From contig JAJFGG010000092.1 in NCBI GenBank assembly GCA_021776235.1, positions 1 to 43,077 on the forward strand: 43,077 nucleotides of DNA, given 5' to 3'. This DNA comes from Alphaproteobacteria bacterium (GTDB taxonomy: Bacteria; Pseudomonadota; Alphaproteobacteria; GCA-2731375). A model generated the notes under the pieces. That model saw only the letters and a list, made by a program, of their open reading frames with translations, did no database searches and had not been told where the DNA came from. The position numbers and the translations under genes were made by a program. Positions 11,733-19,506 of the stretch are shown one piece after another. Positions within the stretch are counted from its first letter, which is position 1. Each line of letters starts with the position of its first letter.

Positions 11733-13415
11733 TCAACCACCCTCGGCATAGTTTTGCCCCGGCTCTGCATCCAGCCGCCAGCCATTGCGAGCCCGGCGCC
11801 ATAGGATATAGGCACCAGTGGCGATGACAATAGCGGCGATAATGGGCCGCGGGATGCCACCCATCATGAACAATGGAATGGAGACCGCAAAACAGGCCGC
11901 TGGCATGTAGAACAGGGTCCATTTCCGTTTTCCCATTTGCGCCTGATATATGGGAAAGATGGCGGAAAAGACCGCGATGATAAGAAAAAACAGAGACCAG
12001 GGGCGGGTGAAAAACGGGCTGATGTCCGTGGTAATGGCCATGGCCCGGGCCAGGTTCAATTCGGCGATGTTGCCCAGAACCACGCCCAGGATCATCGGCG
12101 CCAGGGGAAAGCCCAATTGCCGCATGATGAAGCCGAGGATGCCGAACCATAACAGGGTCCACAAATCAGATTCGACATTGTTGATGGCAAAGACGCCGAT
12201 GCCGCAAAATCCCAGAATGATGGCGGCCAGCATGTACATGCGTACCTTGGTGACCAGCACGAAGATCCGCAGCATAAACGACTGCAATCCCAGCATCATG
12301 AAGGTGGCGAGAAAGAACGAGATGAAGATGGAATAGGCCAGCACCGGTTCTTCGGCAATGAAGGTTGGGCTGGGGATGACGTCGTGGATCAACAGGGCGC
12401 CCAGCATTACCGCCGCCGTTACATCACCCGGTATCCCCAAGGCCATCAGGGTGATCAATGCACCGCCCTCGACCGCGTTGTTGGAACTTTCCGGCGCTAT
12501 AATGCCGTCGGGTATGCCGGTGCCGAATTCCTCCGGATGTCTGGACGCTTTCTTGGCCTGATCGTAGGCAAGAATATTGGCGATGGAGCCCCCCGCGCCG
12601 GGCAGAATACCCGTGAAAACGCCGATCAGTGACGAGCGCAGGACAATGGTCCAACGCTTGACCACCTCGCGGATCGCGGCGCGGTGCTCGATCCTGACCT
12701 GCACCGTGCCTTTTTCGGTCAGGGATTTTCGGGCCGCCACAGGGTCACGCACATCGCGCAATAACTGGCTAAAGGCGAACAGGCCGATCAATACGGCGAT
12801 GAAGTCAAAGCCTGACAACAGCGCCTCGGAACCGAAATCGAAGCGCGCCATACCAACCGCTTCATCCTCGCCCACGGTGCGGACAAGCAGTCCCACGACG
12901 CCGGCGATCAGGCCCTTGATCAGGTGCCGCCCCGACAGGGAGGCGGTAATGGTCAGGGCAAATACCACCAGCATGAAATAGTCCCAGGGATTGAACTCCA
13001 ACCCAACCCGGGCCAATTGCGGCGACAGGGTGACCAGCAGGATGGCCGAAATAATACCGCCGCAGAACGACGACCAGACACCGATGCCAAGGGCCAATCC
13101 TGGCTGGCCCCGGCGGGCCATGGGAAAGCCATCAAAAGTGGTTGCGACTGACGACGGCGTGCCGGGAATACCGGTCAGAATACCAGCCATCAGACCGCCC
13201 GACAGGCCGCCCACCAGGACGCTGACCATGGTGGCCAGCCCCTGGGCGGGCGGCATGCCAAAGGTAAAAGGCAAGGTCAGGACCACTGCCATGGCAATGG
13301 TGAAACCCGGAATGGCGCCCGCGATCAAGCCGCCCGCAACCCCCACCAGCATCAACAACAGGGTCTTGATGGTAGTGATTTCAGCGAACGCCGCCATGAC
13401 GTTCTCAATGATCAT
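11733..13415 (-). CDS. tctA: Tripartite tricarboxylate transporter large permease
   Basis: This is the large membrane subunit of a TTT-family secondary transporter that takes up carboxylates delivered by a periplasmic binding protein. The TctA signatures near the N-terminus are clear: GVAGGLIAGAIPGFT and GILTGIPGTPSSVATTFDG, and later GILPGAGGSIANILAYDQAK. At 560 aa it is longer than the usual about 500; the excess is C-terminal, with an extra pair of hydrophobic segments and a charged tail. The ATG at 13415 is chosen since it follows the tctB stop by 19 bases; the frame is open to 13484 but would overlap tctB. It is co-transcribed with tctB and tctC upstream and a hydrolase downstream. Confidence 0.93.
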   Translation of the reverse strand: MIIENVMAAFAEITTIKTLLLMLVGVAGGLIAGAIPGFTIAMAVVLTLPFTFGMPPAQGLATMVSVLVGGLSGGLMAGILTGIPGTPSSVATTFDGFPMARRGQPGLALGIGVWSSFCGGIISAILLVTLSPQLARVGLEFNPWDYFMLVVFALTITASLSGRHLIKGLIAGVVGLLVRTVGEDEAVGMARFDFGSEALLSGFDFIAVLIGLFAFSQLLRDVRDPVAARKSLTEKGTVQVRIEHRAAIREVVKRWTIVLRSSLIGVFTGILPGAGGSIANILAYDQAKKASRHPEEFGTGIPDGIIAPESSNNAVEGGALITLMALGIPGDVTAAVMLGALLIHDVIPSPTFIAEEPVLAYSIFISFFLATFMMLGLQSFMLRIFVLVTKVRMYMLAAIILGFCGIGVFAINNVESDLWTLLWFGILGFIMRQLGFPLAPMILGVVLGNIAELNLARAMAITTDISPFFTRPWSLFFLIIAVFSAIFPIYQAQMGKRKWTLFYMPAACFAVSIPLFMMGGIPRPIIAAIVIATGAYILWRRARNGWRLDAEPGQNYAEGG

Positions 13416-13434
13416 CGCTCGACGCCCCCAGCCA

Positions 13435-13956
13435 TCAATAGACCGAGAAAATTTCGCCTGGCGGCAACAGCACGCCCAGACCAAAGGTAAAAATGCTCCA
13501 CATCCCCCCCACCGTAATCAGGGCCAGCAGGGCATGCAGCGCCATATTTCGTGGTGCCCAGCCACCCATTACGCCCATCAAAGTAAACACGAACGCCAGA
13601 CCGCCGATCAAGCTGCCCAGCAGGGGCAGGGTCGCCAAATAGACAAAAAACAAGCCAAAGCACCAAATTGGATTGCGCCAATAGACGAGCCAGCCCACCA
13701 GTCCTGGTGCTGGGCCCGGCTCGTCGTCAGACTTGTCGCCGGTTTCAGCCGTCCCGTCCGCCACGCCCCGGCGTATGGATTGCACCAGGTACAAAACACT
13801 CAAAAAGGACAGCGCGGCCAGAATAACGCGCGGCCAGGTGGATGGCTTCAACTGACCATAGTCCGGCACCCGGATGCTGAAGGTAGACCAGAACAGAATG
13901 CCGCAAGCCATCAAAAGCACGATGGCGATGACCGCATCGCGGTTCAGGCGTCCCAT
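13435..13956 (-). CDS. tctB: Tripartite tricarboxylate transporter small permease
   Basis: This is the small membrane subunit of the TctABC system, 173 aa with four hydrophobic helices. It starts MGRLNRDAVIAIVLL and carries the R-V-P-D-Y-G and P-S-T-W-P-R stretch seen in the first periplasmic loop of TctB proteins. A polar loop of about 25 residues rich in Asp, Glu and Pro lies in the middle, more than in many relatives. It lies between tctC and tctA in the common C-B-A order. Sequence conservation in TctB is always low, so the call leans on position and topology. Confidence 0.88.
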   Translation of the reverse strand: MGRLNRDAVIAIVLLMACGILFWSTFSIRVPDYGQLKPSTWPRVILAALSFLSVLYLVQSIRRGVADGTAETGDKSDDEPGPAPGLVGWLVYWRNPIWCFGLFFVYLATLPLLGSLIGGLAFVFTLMGVMGGWAPRNMALHALLALITVGGMWSIFTFGLGVLLPPGEIFSVY

Positions 13957-14043
13957 GACGGCTCCGTCAAATTTGCGCGGTGCATCGGCGGCCGGGGCCA
14001 GGGCATCCAGCCCCGGCCGCCGATAAGCAAAGCGATGAAGTGG

Positions 14044-15018
14044 CTATTTTTTCTTCCACAAGCCGATCTTGATGGCGACCTTTTCGTGGTCGGCAAAGGC
14101 CTTTTTCGCCCAGGCGCGATAACCGTCCGGACCAACCCAGTTCACGTCCGTGCCCTTGGCATCCATCTGCTTGCGCAACCCAGGGTCTTCGGCTGCTTTC
14201 TTGAAGATCTGCGACCAATGATCAAGCACATCCTTCGAGGTTCCCTTTGGCGCCACGATGCCACGGTCAAGGGCATAGATCATATCGACGCCCAGTTCCT
14301 TCAGGGTGGGCATATCAGGCATATGCTTGGAACGCTTGGCCGCCGCGATGGCGAAGCCCTTGAGATCGCCCGCGGCCATGTATTTCCGGCCCGAGGCAAC
14401 GTTCAGTCCGCCCATTTGAACAGCACCGGAAAGCAGCGCGGTCATGCGCTCCCGCGTACCATCATAGGGTACGAACTTGAACTTCATGCCGGTCAAATCT
14501 TCCAGGATCAGCCAATAGAACTGAGACGTGGAGCCAAAGGTAGCGCCAACCTTGACCGTGCCCGGCGCCGCCAGCGTGGCCTTTTTGAAGGACGCAAAAT
14601 CGTTCCACGGCACCTTGCCGGACGCACCGACGATATCAGGCGTTGAGGTCAACAATGCGACGGTCTCGAAATTATCGTACTGGAATGGGATGCGTCCATT
14701 CAGGTACGAGGTAATGGCGCTTTGATGAATGGCAAACAGCGTACAGCCATCGGCTTTGGCCTTGGCCGCCTCCTTGGCGCCCTTGTTGCCGCCCTGGCCG
14801 GGCACGGTGACAACCTTGATCTTCGGCGTCACGTCCATGTCCTGGATGGTCTTCTCAAAAATCGAAAAGATGATGTGGGTGCCGCCGCCGGCCTTCCACG
14901 GCACGATCAGTTTGGCGGTGCCGCATGGGATCTTGGGCGCGGCGGCGGCCCCGGTCGGCGCCAATGCCATGGCGCCCACGGCAAGGGCGGCCGCGGCCGA
15001 AATTACGAGTTTACGCAT
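14044..15018 (-). CDS. tctC: Tricarboxylate-transport substrate-binding protein (Bug family)
   Basis: This periplasmic binding protein captures the substrate for TctAB. A signal peptide covers about residues 1-27 (ending GAAAA). The mature domain has the Bug-family features: LIVPWKAGGGTH after the first strand, VVTVPGQGGNKGAKEAAKAK, and a central G-A-T-F-G-S-T-S-Q-F segment that lines the ligand carboxylate pocket in relatives. An extra Cys pair (C32, C92) could form a disulfide. GGGAG precedes the ATG. It is first in the operon and divergent from the acyl-CoA-dehydrogenase-like gene; the 194-base gap must hold both promoters. Bug ligands vary widely (citrate, tartrate, nicotinate, terephthalate and others), so this one is open. 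Confidence 0.92.
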   Translation of the reverse strand: MRKLVISAAAALAVGAMALAPTGAAAAPKIPCGTAKLIVPWKAGGGTHIIFSIFEKTIQDMDVTPKIKVVTVPGQGGNKGAKEAAKAKADGCTLFAIHQSAITSYLNGRIPFQYDNFETVALLTSTPDIVGASGKVPWNDFASFKKATLAAPGTVKVGATFGSTSQFYWLILEDLTGMKFKFVPYDGTRERMTALLSGAVQMGGLNVASGRKYMAAGDLKGFAIAAAKRSKHMPDMPTLKELGVDMIYALDRGIVAPKGTSKDVLDHWSQIFKKAAEDPGLRKQMDAKGTDVNWVGPDGYRAWAKKAFADHEKVAIKIGLWKKK

Positions 15019-15212: not shown

Positions 15213-16418
15213 ATGTCTAGTGAACTTACGGCAGCAAAATCGGAGGCCGGACGGGTCCTGAGCGAAAATGCCCTGGACCACGCCCGTGCCGTGGCGCCGG
15301 TTCTGCGCGCTGCCGCTGATCAGATCGAGGCCGAGCGGGCCCTGCCGCCACATACGCTGGCGGCCATGCATGACGGTGAATTGTTTCGCCTGACCCTACC
15401 CAGGCGTCATGGCGGCGCGGAATTGCCATTGCCCCAGTTGACCCAGGTCGCCGAGATCATTGCCGGGGCCGATGCCTCCGCCGCCTGGTGCCTGGGCCAG
15501 GCCTCGGGCTGCGCCATGTCCGCCGCTTTCATGGACGAAGCACCGGCGCGCAAGGTTTTTGATCCACCGGATGCGGTTCTGGCCTGGGGTGCGGGGATCC
15601 AGGGCAAGGCGGTCGCGACCGAGGGCGGCTATCTGGTCAGCGGCACCTGGCGCTTCGCCTCCGGCAGTCATCACGCCACCTGGCTGGGCGGCCATAGCAA
15701 GGTGTTCGAGGCGGACGGGACGCCCCGCCCCGGCGCCGGGGGCCGGCAGGTAAACCGTACGGCGCTGTTTCCCCGATCGGCGGCGCATATGGCCGATGAT
15801 TGGCATGTCATGGGCCTGCGCGGCACCCGCAGCGAAGGCTACACGGTGGAAAACCTGTTCGTGGCCGAAGGTTTGACCCTGGACCGGGAGACCGTAACCG
15901 AGTGCCAGGTCCCCACCACCCTGTTCCGCTTTCCCACCACCATTGTCTATGCCTCGTTGTTCTCCAGCGTCGCCCTGGGCATAGCCCGCGGCGCCTGCGA
16001 TGATCTGCTGGCCCTGGGATTGGAGAAAACAGCCCGCGCCGCGCGCAGTTCCCTGCGCGATAGCCCGGTCTTTCAAATCAGACTGGCCGAACTTGAGGCC
16101 CAGCTTGGTTCGGCCCGGGCCTACCAGCAAGATGCCGTGGCCGAGGTCTGGGAGGCGGTCGATAGGACGGGCGAGCTAAGCATTGCAGACCGGGCCCGGA
16201 TCCGTCTGGCCACCACCTATGCCATAAATGAAGCGACGGCGGTGGTCGAACAAATCTACCGCCTGGCCGGTTCCACCGCGATTTTCGACGACCAACCGTT
16301 CGAGCGGCGCTTCCGCGATATCCACGCCGTCTCGCAGCAGGTTCAGGCCCGCCATAGCAATTACGAAACCGTCGGCCGCTTCATGCTGGATCTGGATGTC
16401 GACACCATCTTCATGTAA
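15213..16418 (+). CDS. Acyl-CoA-dehydrogenase-fold flavoprotein
   Basis: This 401-aa flavin enzyme has the acyl-CoA dehydrogenase fold, with an N-terminal helical part, a middle beta-domain (SGTWRFASGSHHATW) and a C-terminal helical bundle. The C-terminus (YRLAGSTAIFDDQPFERRFRD) looks like the type 2 C-terminal domain of flavin-dependent monooxygenases of the HpaB/DszC kind rather than the classical catalytic-Glu region of fatty-acid dehydrogenases. It may be an oxygenase needing reduced flavin or a dehydrogenase on an unusual acyl group. It faces the Mct/hydratase operon tail to tail and the tctC gene head to head. A link to either pathway is plausible but unproved. Confidence 0.82.
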   Translation: MSSELTAAKSEAGRVLSENALDHARAVAPVLRAAADQIEAERALPPHTLAAMHDGELFRLTLPRRHGGAELPLPQLTQVAEIIAGADASAAWCLGQASGCAMSAAFMDEAPARKVFDPPDAVLAWGAGIQGKAVATEGGYLVSGTWRFASGSHHATWLGGHSKVFEADGTPRPGAGGRQVNRTALFPRSAAHMADDWHVMGLRGTRSEGYTVENLFVAEGLTLDRETVTECQVPTTLFRFPTTIVYASLFSSVALGIARGACDDLLALGLEKTARAARSSLRDSPVFQIRLAELEAQLGSARAYQQDAVAEVWEAVDRTGELSIADRARIRLATTYAINEATAVVEQIYRLAGSTAIFDDQPFERRFRDIHAVSQQVQARHSNYETVGRFMLDLDVDTIFM

Positions 16419-16437: not shown

Positions 16438-16851
16438 TTAGAACCGTACCTGCGCCGTGCCCGGCGTGATGACATCGCCTTTTTCGTTCTTGATAAAAAT
16501 CTCCACGTCAACCGTTCCAGCCGCCTTATCGATGGCAGTGATGGCGCCGCCGGAGGTCAGGGTTTCGCCCAGGTAGGAGGCGCGGCGGTTGGAATAGTTG
16601 AACTGGGTCAACGTGCCGTTATCGCCCATCCAGTTCAGCACCACCTGGTTCAGCCAGTCGCCCTGCAACGGGCCGTCGATGACCACGCCGGGATGCTTCT
16701 CCACCTGGGTCGTATAGGTTTCATCGTAGTGAATGCGGTGGGGATTCCAGATTATGGCGTTGTACAGGAACAACGACACATTTGTGGCGGTATGGCTACG
16801 TTCCGGCAGGGCCTCGCCCACGGCCAGGGTCGAAATATCGATGGCGCTCAT
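16438..16851 (-). CDS. MaoC-like hot-dog hydratase subunit, probable C-terminal half of a mesaconyl-C4-CoA-hydratase-like enzyme
   Basis: This 137-aa hot-dog-fold protein carries the hydratase signature WNPHRIHYD at residues 35-43, with H41 as probable catalytic His, in the form seen in HTD2-like and mesaconyl-C4-CoA hydratases rather than the SxDxNPxH of standard MaoC. GPLQGDW may shape the CoA tunnel. It overlaps the FAS1-like gene upstream in ATGA, so the two products are made together. In the family the two hot-dog halves are usually fused in one chain of roughly 270-350 residues; here they are separate genes. The partner and the adjacent mct-like gene suggest hydration of mesaconyl-C4-CoA to citramalyl-CoA. 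That step is inference. Confidence 0.78.
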   Translation of the reverse strand: MSAIDISTLAVGEALPERSHTATNVSLFLYNAIIWNPHRIHYDETYTTQVEKHPGVVIDGPLQGDWLNQVVLNWMGDNGTLTQFNYSNRRASYLGETLTSGGAITAIDKAAGTVDVEIFIKNEKGDVITPGTAQVRF

Positions 16852-17303
16852 CGTAGTATCCTTGTTTGCCGTTCTTCCATGACCAGTTCGCCCGCTTCGG
16901 TCTCCACGCGCAGATCATAGACCACGAATATCAGCGGACCGCTGCCGCCTTGCTTTTCATACATATCGCTTAGGGACCGGGTGGCGCGCAGCACATCGCC
17001 GGGATGAACCGTGCGATGAAACTTCATTTCAGTGCCCCCTGCCATGACCCGCTTGAGCGGCAGTTCAGGCAGGAATTTGTCCACCGAGATACCGTCCGGA
17101 CCCAGTTCGTCCATGGGCACCAGGGGGCGCAGCGCGCCAAACATGAACATTGGCGGCGCTTCGTCGCCCTCCAGATATTTCGCCTGACGCTGTTCCGTCG
17201 CGATCGAGTATTTAATGATATCGCTGCGGTTTATCTCGACCCTTTGCGGCTCGCCGCTGCGTCCGATCCAGGATTTGGCCTCCGCGCTGATCAACTCACT
17301 CAA
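16848..17303 (-). CDS. FAS1-like dehydratase-domain subunit, probable N-terminal half of a mesaconyl-C4-CoA-hydratase-like enzyme
   Basis: This is a 151-aa hot-dog protein of the MaoC N-terminal/FAS1-like dehydratase type. The start is the TTG at 17303, because AAAGGAGGC lies six bases upstream, an ideal ribosome site; the longer TTG frame from 17348 would place that site inside the gene. Features are the long-helix segment INRSDIIKYSIAT, the pocket stretch APPMFMFGAL and the sheet segment GGTEMKFHRTVHPGD. It lacks the NPHRIH hydratase motif, which is in its overlapping downstream partner, so the active enzyme should be a heteromer. It lies 47 bases after the mct-like gene. Confidence 0.78.
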   Translation of the reverse strand: MSELISAEAKSWIGRSGEPQRVEINRSDIIKYSIATEQRQAKYLEGDEAPPMFMFGALRPLVPMDELGPDGISVDKFLPELPLKRVMAGGTEMKFHRTVHPGDVLRATRSLSDMYEKQGGSGPLIFVVYDLRVETEAGELVMEERQTRILR

Positions 17304-17350
17304 TTCTGCGCCTCCTTTCTTGTTTCCTGGCCGGTCAAGGCCGCCCAAAT

Positions 17351-18580
17351 TCAGTCCCCGCCGCCGCCCACGATGCCGTCGTCGCGCAGGCCGGCGATCT
17401 CGCCATCGCTCAAGCCCAGAATATCCGCCAGGATCTGGTCCGTATGCTGGCCCAACGCCGGCGCGGGTTGCACAGTTTCGCGCGGCGCGGCGCCAAAGTC
17501 CATGGGTGATCCGGGCGTCAGATAGTGCCCTATGCCCGGTTGGTCGACGATCTCAAAGACCGGGTTTTCCGTCGAGCAGCGCCAGTCTTCGGCCAGGGCC
17601 TGTGTAACGCTCTGATAAGGACCCCAGGACACCCCACCGGCGGTCAAAGTGGCCGCCAGATCGGCAAAATCCCGGGCCCCGCACCAGGGTTCCAACAAGG
17701 CAGCAATATCGTCGGTGGCCAGATAACGGTCGCCCTCGCGAGTCAGGTCCAAATTCCGCTGCGCCTCGATCGCCGCCACACCGTCGGCGATCCCGGCGGT
17801 CTCCAACAGGGCCGGCCATTGCCGTCCGGTTATGGCCACGATCATCACCCGGCGGCCGTCGCGGGTCGCGAAATCGCGGCCAAAGGCGCCATAAAGATCA
17901 TTGCCCGTGGCCGGGCGTTCGCTACCATTGATCTGGGTCTCGCCAATAAAGCCCAGGGTCCCCAGGGCGGCGAAGGCCACGTCGGTCAGGGCCAGCGAGA
18001 TGAACTGGCCCTCTCCCGTCAGCCTGCGATGACGCTCGGCCGCCAGGATACCGTTGACCGCCGCCAGGCCCGTGGCGATATCCCAAGCCGGCAAGACATG
18101 GTTGACGGGGGCCTCTGCCCCGGCCGGTCCCGTCAAATTCGGAAAACCAGTGGCTGGATTGACCGTGTAATCAACCTCCGAGGTGCCGTCACGGTTGCCC
18201 TTGATATTCAGCATGATCAGATCGTCGCGCTGCGCCTTCAAGGTGTCGTAGGACAGCCAGCCGGAGGTGGGAAAATTGGTCAGAAAAATGCCGGTGTTTT
18301 CCCGGTCATCGCCAGAACCGCAGATCAGCCGGGTCAGCAATTCACGGCCTCTGGGGTTGCGGATATCCACGGCGATGGATTTTTTGCCCTTGTTTAAACC
18401 GGCCCAATAGAGGCTTTCGCCGCTTTCCGTCACGGGCCAGCGACGATAGTCCAGGCCGCCGCCCAGGGGGTCAAAGCGGATCACCTCCGCTCCCATTTGT
18501 GCCAACGTCATGCCCGCACTGGGCGCAGCGATAAAGGCCGAACCCTCAATGACCCGTAGACCGCGCAGGATGCCGTTCAT
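17351..18580 (-). CDS. mct: Family III CoA transferase, probable 2-methylfumaryl-CoA isomerase (mesaconyl-CoA C1-C4 CoA transferase)
   Basis: This 409-aa CaiB/BaiF-type enzyme moves CoA through an aspartyl anhydride; the catalytic Asp is D167 in HVLPAWDIATG. The N-terminal pattern GSAFIAAPSAGMTLAQMG, then RFDPLGGGLDYRRWPV and GLNKGKKSIAVDIRNPRGRE, and the later GNDLYGAFGRDF and PGIGHYLTPGSP, match what I recall of Chloroflexus Mct, which shifts CoA within mesaconate from C1 to C4. I could not align them here. It opens a three-gene operon whose next two genes form the matching hydratase, the order of steps in the second half of the 3-hydroxypropionate bicycle. No citramalyl-CoA lyase is in the window. 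An alternative is another intramolecular dicarboxylate CoA transferase. Confidence 0.78.
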   Translation of the reverse strand: MNGILRGLRVIEGSAFIAAPSAGMTLAQMGAEVIRFDPLGGGLDYRRWPVTESGESLYWAGLNKGKKSIAVDIRNPRGRELLTRLICGSGDDRENTGIFLTNFPTSGWLSYDTLKAQRDDLIMLNIKGNRDGTSEVDYTVNPATGFPNLTGPAGAEAPVNHVLPAWDIATGLAAVNGILAAERHRRLTGEGQFISLALTDVAFAALGTLGFIGETQINGSERPATGNDLYGAFGRDFATRDGRRVMIVAITGRQWPALLETAGIADGVAAIEAQRNLDLTREGDRYLATDDIAALLEPWCGARDFADLAATLTAGGVSWGPYQSVTQALAEDWRCSTENPVFEIVDQPGIGHYLTPGSPMDFGAAPRETVQPAPALGQHTDQILADILGLSDGEIAGLRDDGIVGGGGD

Positions 18581-18690: not shown

Positions 18691-19506
18691 TTACATATAC
18701 GGGCTTGGGTCGGACAAATGATGGTTTGTCAGCTCCTGCGTCAGATATTCAAACGCGTCGTCGACGCTGTCGCAGAGGTGGAACAGTTTCAGATCCTCGG
18801 CCTCGATCGTGCCGAAATCCACCAACGCCTGGAAATCCACCACCCGGTCCCAATATTCCTTGCCGTAGAGGACAATGGGCACTTTCTTGCGGATTTTGCC
18901 CGTCTGCATCAGGGTGAAGGTCTCGAACAGTTCGTCCAAGGTGCCGACACCGCCGGGCATGGCAATAATGGCCTTGGACAGGTAAGCGAACCAGAACTTT
19001 CGTGTGAAAAAATAATGGAATTCGAAGGCCAGGTTGCGGGTGACATAGGGATTGGCAAATTGTTCGAAAGGCAGGGAGATATTCAGGCCAATATTAAGCC
19101 CCTTGGCTTCCGAGGCACCGCGGCTGGCCGCCTCCATGATGCCGGGTCCACCACCTGTGCAAATGACAAAACGCTTGTCTTCCCGGTCGAGGCCCTTTGA
19201 CCATTCCGTCAAGCGACCCGATAGAGCGCGGGCGTCTTCGTAATAGCGCGACATCTTCACGGCCTTTTGCGCCTTGGCCAAATCGCCGCCTTCGGCTTCG
19301 GCCTTTTTCAGGGCTGCCTGCGCCACTTCGGCGGACGAGAAACGGGCCGAACCGAAAATGACGATGGTGTCGCGCACCCGGGCCTGACGAAAGCGCTCTT
19401 CCGGCTCCATATATTCGGCAAGTATGCGCAGCGGCCGGGCCGAGCGGCCGCTGAGAAACTCTTCGTCACGATAGGCCTTGACGGGATGATACGGTTCATC
19501 ATTCAT
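18691..19506 (-). CDS. LOG-family (TIGR00730-type) nucleotide-processing protein
   Basis: This 271-aa protein belongs to the LOG family, often misnamed lysine decarboxylase. Proven members split nucleoside 5'-monophosphates, including cytokinin ribotides, into base and ribose phosphate. The two signature loops are present: GGGPGIMEA at residues 118-126 and PGGVGTLDE at 184-192, with the catalytic Arg and Glu region in between. The N-terminus is about 80 residues longer than plant LOGs, as in other proteobacterial members. The ATG at 19506 is first in the frame. It stands alone, divergent from gtrA; the substrate is uncertain. Confidence 0.9.
   Translation of the reverse strand: MNDEPYHPVKAYRDEEFLSGRSARPLRILAEYMEPEERFRQARVRDTIVIFGSARFSSAEVAQAALKKAEAEGGDLAKAQKAVKMSRYYEDARALSGRLTEWSKGLDREDKRFVICTGGGPGIMEAASRGASEAKGLNIGLNISLPFEQFANPYVTRNLAFEFHYFFTRKFWFAYLSKAIIAMPGGVGTLDELFETFTLMQTGKIRKKVPIVLYGKEYWDRVVDFQALVDFGTIEAEDLKLFHLCDSVDDAFEYLTQELTNHHLSDPSPYM

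Follow-up and report, generated by a model that had tools for sequence, protein, structure and literature searches.

A Candidate Two-Gene Mesaconyl-C4-CoA Hydratase beside an Mct-Like Coenzyme A Transferase in an Uncultured Alphaproteobacterial Genus

Introduction

The mesaconyl-coenzyme A (CoA) isomerizing transferase Mct and the mesaconyl-C4-CoA hydratase Meh are best known as enzymes of the CO2-fixing 3-hydroxypropionate bicycle (PMC9813914). Meh is a single polypeptide of about 280 to 290 amino acids (aa) that contains both hot-dog halves. Itaconyl-CoA hydratase (Ich; PDB 8huc and 8khg), also one polypeptide, has its gene among those for itaconate use and not next to Mct, and it is reported to have mesaconyl-C4-CoA hydratase activity as well (PMC12290011). 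The mycobacterial HadAB dehydratase is a two-gene hot-dog enzyme, which by its model name acts on acyl-acyl carrier protein. Here, we describe a three-gene grouping in a 43,077-nucleotide stretch of an alphaproteobacterial genome (GCA_021776235.1, contig JAJFGG010000092.1; "the window"), in which an Mct-like gene is followed by two hot-dog genes, here called hdA and hdB. Among the papers listed by searches of the open-licence literature, none described a mesaconyl-C4-CoA hydratase encoded by two genes.

The explanation to which we give slightly better than an even chance is that Mct works together with a heteromeric mesaconyl-C4-CoA hydratase, formed by hdA and hdB, in place of the one-piece Meh. 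Mct would move the CoA of mesaconyl-CoA from C1 to C4; hdB, which carries an NPHRIHYD motif, would be the catalytic half of the hydratase, and hdA its structural or substrate-tunnel half. The product would be citramalyl-CoA, handed to a CitE/RipC-type lyase encoded elsewhere, and the pair would have assumed both the function and the position of the one-piece Meh, which sister genera retain next to Mct. The heteromer, its substrate, the stereochemistry of its product, the lyase, and the upstream source of mesaconyl-CoA are presumed in this scheme, which is a plausible variant of known chemistry, i.e., a two-gene enzyme replacing the usual one-piece enzyme in uncultured bacteria. An earlier reading of the window, made from the sequence only, had proposed much the same interpretation; it is partly supported by the present results, and the catalytic role is a prediction. 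If true, the scheme affects the way in which these pathways are assigned in genome annotation, and its three genes form a compact set with which the substrate and the roles of the subunits could be tested directly.

Three genes on the minus strand

Three minus-strand open reading frames were confirmed, in the order that the sequence-only reading had given: an Mct-family CoA transferase (mesaconyl-C1-CoA:C4-CoA isomerase-like; 17351 to 18580, 409 aa), the FAS1-DH-like hot-dog subunit hdA (16848 to 17303, 151 aa), and the MaoC-like hot-dog subunit hdB (16438 to 16851, 137 aa). One boundary was corrected: the automatic start of hdA was a TTG at 17348, and we place the gene at 17303 to 16848 because the TTG at 17303 is preceded by AAGAAAGGAGG and the resulting 151-aa product has the length of its orthologues in the genus. 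This TTG stands behind GGAGG, and the Shine-Dalgarno-like AAGAAAGGAGG lies within the 47 bases that separate the stop of Mct from the start of hdA (17304 to 17350, minus strand). The hdA and hdB genes overlap by 4 bases (ATGA). Of 12 pairs examined, 11 show such a 4-base overlap (the exception, in genome G108, has a 14-base gap), and the coupled translation of the two genes counts in favour of the preferred explanation.

The transferase falls within the Mct clade

The window transferase scored 577.9 bits with the NCBIfam model TIGR04253 (2-methylfumaryl-CoA isomerase), the next best model reaching 111.9 bits; among solved structures, two Mct sequences (PDB 7xkg and 8apq) matched at about 553 bits, and the next best chain at 96.5 bits. 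A quick maximum-likelihood tree (95 rows) separated 90 Mct-like rows (support, 100) from five other family III CoA transferases. The window Mct lay among the former with the Mct of Roseiflexus and Accumulibacter, in line with the Mct-like pattern noted by the sequence-only reading. Within this clade, it lies on a branch of alphaproteobacterial and same-class rows, outside the Roseiflexus/Accumulibacter subclade (98). For the solved enzymes, PMC9813914 and PMC9196870 name Asp165, Arg47, Tyr136, and Leu43, along with Arg104, for CoA (adenine), and Arg314', for the product. The window protein keeps the catalytic Asp, at the position 167 that had been singled out earlier (numbered from the ATG), together with Arg47, Tyr138, and the narrowing Leu43. 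Asp, Arg, and Tyr are present in 90/90 Mct-clade rows, and position 43 is Leu in 77/90 and Ile in 9/90.

Two features weigh against a straightforward Mct assignment: the score of 577.9 bits is under the equivalog cut-off of 725 bits for TIGR04253, and Arg104 and Arg314 of the characterized enzymes are replaced by Ser106 and Gly316. At the second of these sites, Gly is the most frequent residue (54/90 Mct-clade rows). When the same model was calibrated on other proteins, the Mct of Roseiflexus (867.7 bits), Accumulibacter (817.6), and the alphaproteobacterial locus L116 (741.6) scored higher, as did that of the sister-genus genome G011, which has a one-piece Meh (603.5); the Mct of the Paraburkholderia sp. 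D15 plasmid, encoded near a one-piece Meh, reached 554.1 bits. From the TIGR04253 scores, the tree, the residues, and this calibration, we thus describe the enzyme as an Mct-like member of the Mct clade that falls short of the curated equivalog threshold; its sequence suggests that it works like Mct.

The low score and the two changed arginines could also mean that the transferase is an Mct-clade intramolecular CoA isomerase for another dicarboxylyl-CoA and that the pair hydrates that other product, as could the fact that none of the three routes to mesaconyl-CoA or mesaconate that were looked for was found in the window's genome (see below). We consider this quite improbable, given that the window protein retains the residues contacting mesaconate (Arg47, Tyr, and Asp) as well as the narrowing Leu43, that the sister Mct of G011 (79% identical to that of the window) adjoins a Meh grouping with those of Roseiflexus and Accumulibacter, and that the cluster of the genus genome G004 contains a methylaspartate ammonia-lyase gene. 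One genome, G042, carries a second, divergent Mct copy (C1:292166-293362; L022), 50% identical to that of the window, in addition to a closer one.

The hot-dog pair is related to one-piece Meh and Ich

Both hdA and hdB have itaconyl-CoA hydratase (8huc and 8khg) as their best match among solved structures, ahead of HadA/HadB. The kinship of the pair fits the proposed reaction, since this enzyme is reported to hydrate mesaconyl-C4-CoA (PMC12290011). In hhalign comparisons, hdA aligned with the N-terminal half of Meh over 139 columns (31% identity; E value, 4e-17) and hdB with the C-terminal half over 68 columns (40% identity; E value, 3e-14). Against a one-piece Meh profile, the hdA genes of eight genus loci matched positions 6 to 149 (56 to 66 bits) and the hdB genes about positions 172 to 242 (48 to 52 bits). 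In the family databases, hdA matched PF13452 (61.6 bits) and no NCBIfam model at an E value of 0.001; hdB had no Pfam match at 0.001, and HadB and itaconyl-CoA hydratase matches were found instead. Like HadAB, the window pair is encoded by two genes, with one Had subunit matching hdA and the other hdB, but the match is weaker, the HadB NCBIfam model reaching only 33.1 bits on hdB against a cut-off of 203.

The half order, the WIGR start, the KRVMAGG/RRMFAGA and GxxGPLIFV/GxSGxLxFV stretches, the NxHRIHYD block, and the place beside Mct are shared with one-piece Meh. In the NxHRIHYD block, N, H, R, I, H, and D are invariant in 10 aligned one-piece rows; hdB keeps the block as NPHRIHYD (residues 36 to 43), invariant in eight aligned genus sequences. 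No motif of this type was seen in the hdA sequence, so that the division into a motif-bearing and a motif-free half made by the sequence-only reading stands. In contrast to one-piece Meh, the window has two genes (151 plus 137 aa), and hdA, while keeping the WIGR start, has MFMFGALRP in place of the WHWxYF block of the Meh N-terminal half, in which W, H, W, Y, and F are invariant in 10 one-piece rows.

The kinship of hdB, taken alone, speaks less clearly for Meh. The hdB profile gave only 31 to 54 bits on one-piece Meh/Ich members, with 51.7 and 56.7 bits on other pairs (L052, in the window's own genome, and G318, respectively) and 58 to 62 bits on further genes in G011, G003, and G002. Since other pairs and unlinked genes score as high, Meh does not stand out as the closest relative of hdB taken by itself. 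The corresponding comparison for hdA gave 23 to 52 bits on one-piece members versus 28.8 bits on L052; hdA, unlike hdB, is by these scores clearly closest to Meh. AlphaFold2 models of the two subunits, built from five-row alignments, were poor (mean predicted local distance difference test scores, 38.0 for hdA and 52.4 for hdB) and were not used.

The pair occupies the place of Meh in one genus

Among 61 genomes (the window's own and its relatives), 16 had strong Mct matches (>440 bits), as did 9 of the 11 genomes of the window's genus. Orthologues of hdB (>280 bits) were found in 10 of these 11 genomes versus none of the four from other genera of the family; the genus genome lacking one (G007) is 84% complete. 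The pair and Mct share a contig in 8 of the 10 hdB-positive genus genomes, the pair standing directly behind Mct in 6 of them, with inserted genes between the two in G003 and G004. The contig ends just beyond hdA in G005 and G009. Given its recurrence across the genus, the three-gene grouping is not a product of chance.

In these four genomes of sister genera, a one-piece Meh (430 to 467 bits) adjoins Mct in three (G011, G012, and G014), and the fourth (G013) has neither an hdB orthologue nor a one-piece Meh match. In the synteny comparison (L023 to L031), the window reads LOG-Mct-hdA-hdB, and G011 reads LOG-Mct-Meh. In each of the eight genus genomes with an intact stretch, the pair takes the position that Meh has next to Mct. 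Nine of the 11 genus genomes have no one-piece Meh/Ich match at an E value of 1e-20; the one-piece Meh/Ich genes of G003 and G004 (279 and 292 bits) lie elsewhere in the genome and group apart from Mct-linked Meh.

Displacement is favoured over gene splitting

The earlier picture of a Meh-like two-gene hydratase held with respect to the relatives of the pair and its place; the notion of a Meh cut in two fared less well. A quick tree of 72 rows, built from the joined halves, placed the genus pairs, together with those of G093, G207, G108, and G041, outside a clade of 52 one-piece Meh/Ich rows (support, 98), with pairs from other families nested around those of the genus. In the same tree, the sister-genus Meh grouped with the Meh of Roseiflexus and Accumulibacter (100); the pair clade had a support of 90, and long branches were flagged. 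The position outside the one-piece clade and the occurrence of relatives in other families at other loci lead us to favour, on phylogenetic grounds, a displacement of Meh by a related pair.

A true fission of a one-piece Meh gene followed by fast divergence would leave the function unchanged and overlaps with the preferred explanation, from which it differs only in origin. Both halves align to Meh in order, and approximately unbiased tests, with three long rows left out, rejected neither a grouping of the pairs with the Mct-linked Meh clade (P = 0.463) nor one with the sister-genus Meh (P = 0.427). Against a fission stand the best tree just described and the local identity to the G011 Meh, which is just 34% for hdA and 48% for hdB. 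We regard this origin as unlikely.

Co-occurrence of Mct and hydratases across the class

A sample of 385 genomes of the class was searched with thresholds of an E value of 1e-90 for Mct, >150 bits for hdB, and an E value of 1e-40 for one-piece Meh/Ich; matches were found in 57, 8, and 127 genomes, respectively. One-piece Meh/Ich was present in 43 of the 57 Mct genomes versus 84 of the 328 others (Fisher P = 1e-12, kinship ignored). Seven of the eight hdB-positive genomes carry Mct. Outside the genus, Mct was found in 3/4 hdB-positive genomes versus 50/377 (one-sided Fisher P = 0.009, kinship again ignored, the positives coming from two families and the negative from one). Of the 14 Mct genomes without a one-piece Meh/Ich, 4 belong to the window's genus and have the pair. 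An Mct-type gene is thus present in 57/385 genomes, and its hydratase partner may be a different, two-gene enzyme.

Several results count against a replacement of Meh by the pair. In the other 10 of the 14 genomes, none of which belongs to the genus, both the pair and a one-piece match are missing, so that some Mct genomes must rely on another partner or on none. Besides the pair, the genomes G093, G207, and G108 have a gene of the one-piece Meh/Ich type (229, 227, and 336 bits, respectively), and their pair and Mct are on different contigs; both facts weaken a replacement in these three genomes. The pair relative of G041 adjoins an acyl-CoA ligase gene in a genome without Mct (best match, 138 bits), and a MaoC half encoded on a Rhodococcus plasmid, 34% identical to hdB, is part of a two-gene pair within a thiolase/dehydrogenase cluster. 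From the latter two contexts, the wider pair family is not specific for mesaconyl-CoA.

These neighbourhoods, to which a flavin monooxygenase gene adjoining the pair of G108 can be added, are what would be expected if the pair were a hydratase or dehydratase for another acyl-CoA (e.g., in a beta-oxidation-like route) that shares the operon but does not act on the Mct product; the hdB profile, on which certain two-gene pairs from elsewhere equal one-piece Meh/Ich in score, points the same way. Such a role is nevertheless rather unlikely, in view of the Meh place held beside Mct in eight genomes with an intact stretch, the lack of a one-piece match in 9 of 11 genomes, and the best solved-structure match of both halves to itaconyl-CoA hydratase.

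Sources of mesaconate and candidate lyases

For the preferred explanation, i.e., an Mct working with a heteromeric mesaconyl-C4-CoA hydratase, a link to mesaconate comes from the genus genome G004. Its cluster (L024:7738-13370, one strand) comprises genes for Mct, an MR/MLE protein, a GNAT protein, methylaspartate ammonia-lyase, and, after a gap of about 540 bases, an M20 amidohydrolase, hdA, and hdB; proteins identical to those of the cluster are encoded in L071 (JABIWH010000011.1). The ammonia-lyase scored 480.7 bits with TIGR01502 (cut-off, 286.15) and 390 bits with methylaspartate ammonia-lyase in the PDB. Methylaspartate ammonia-lyase produces mesaconate from 3-methylaspartate, and its presence inside the same cluster supports the mesaconate link. 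The combination of GNAT, MR/MLE, and M20 genes may resemble an N-acyl amino acid racemase salvage set, and G003 also has MR/MLE and M20 genes.

The use of mesaconate or methylaspartate suggested by the sequence-only reading finds this support in G004; the methylaspartate route is not supported in the window's genome, where no MAAL_C match was obtained at an E value of 0.001. Nor was the ammonia-lyase present in any locus examined beyond that of G004, including the examined stretch of G003. The ethylmalonyl-CoA pathway was rejected as a source in the window's genome, where crotonyl-CoA carboxylase/reductase reached at most 151.4 bits against a cut-off of 378.55, and full-length Mch (PF19315) was not found there, the matches being partial (at best 90.4 bits over positions 20 to 169 of 353). 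The presence of the ammonia-lyase in just one of the genus loci examined and the lack of a match in the window's genome tell against the preferred explanation, as does the absence from the window's contig of all 12 PF03328 (CitE-like) matches of the genome.

These 12 matches are nevertheless what the genome offers for the citramalyl-CoA lyase that the earlier interpretation had envisaged. Of six such proteins scanned, five were CitE-like, with RipC scores of 125 to 246 bits (below the cut-off of 375), and the sixth was HpaI/GarL-like. Because the lyase of the Paraburkholderia D15 cluster described below scores only 157.7 bits with the RipC model, the CitE-like proteins of the window's genome stay lyase candidates. 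The lyase type linked to Mct in Accumulibacter and Roseiflexus was not found in the window's genome (best CitE-like match, 67.6 bits versus 705 to 792 bits for full-length Mct-locus members). Two of the scanned CitE-like proteins adjoin family III CoA transferases, and a third lies on contig C93 (L182:444-4164) in a row of genes for a family III CoA transferase, a RipC-like lyase, a RipB/Ich-like MaoC protein, and an acyl-CoA dehydrogenase. The C93 row resembles an itaconate/methylsuccinate-type set.

Mct loci in other lineages

We compared 80 named Mct loci, the best of at least 546 confirmed ones, many of them short. Four contained the pair (all from genomes of the window's genus as well), and 14 had a one-piece Meh, truncated in one locus where the contig stops. 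Another 11 had a different one-piece hot-dog hydratase (cluster c9), possibly a third hydratase type partnering Mct. The c9 loci are mostly gammaproteobacterial (L118, L124, L127, L130, L131, L133, L135, L136, L142, L146, and L147) and often also carry a methylsuccinyl-CoA dehydrogenase-like gene. In 18 of the 80 loci, a member of a long acyl-CoA dehydrogenase family (>700 bits) lies within about 3.4 kb of Mct; two members, from L122 and Paraburkholderia, match (2S)-methylsuccinyl-CoA dehydrogenase (8ciw) at 577 and 686 bits, respectively. In the window and the genus loci examined, no methylsuccinyl-CoA dehydrogenase-like gene matched at >150 bits near Mct, and the best match to the profile in the stretches of the window's own genome that were examined was a 397-residue frame in L150 (298.8 bits) without the long N-terminal part.

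A plasmid of Paraburkholderia sp. D15 (L273:9669-19623) combines, within about 10 kb, genes for a one-piece Meh (346 bits), a RipC-like lyase, a methylsuccinyl-CoA dehydrogenase relative, Mct, and a further CoA transferase. From its gene content, methylsuccinate may be converted to acetyl-CoA and pyruvate through the C1 ester, a route that would run parallel to the C4-ester one described in Cupriavidus necator and Pseudomonas aeruginosa (PMC12290011). The occurrence of Mct beside methylsuccinyl-CoA dehydrogenase-like genes in such lineages suggests C5-dicarboxylate catabolism, and in several lineages the neighbours point in this direction. More broadly, and at somewhat less than an even chance, we propose that a two-subunit relative of Meh and Ich, not a split copy, displaced Meh at the Mct locus of one genus and that Mct modules outside phototrophs serve the catabolism of C5 dicarboxylates to acetyl-CoA and pyruvate (i.e., of methylsuccinate via methylsuccinyl-CoA dehydrogenase or of methylaspartate via methylaspartate ammonia-lyase), not CO2 fixation.

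Neighbouring genes in the window

Upstream of Mct lies a LOG/lysine-decarboxylase-like gene (18691 to 19506, minus strand; PF03641), which served as a positional anchor. On the other side, a homologue of the HsaA/HpaH-like flavin monooxygenases (15213 to 16418) faces hdB and has also stayed close to the pair in L028, L029, and L181. Genes for a TctA, TctB, and TctC tripartite tricarboxylate transporter (11733 to 15018) stand near the cluster; the window Tct genes were unmatched in the genus loci compared, and TctABC was given no weight as a functional partner. TctC-like genes are present also in the Mct loci L034 and L104.

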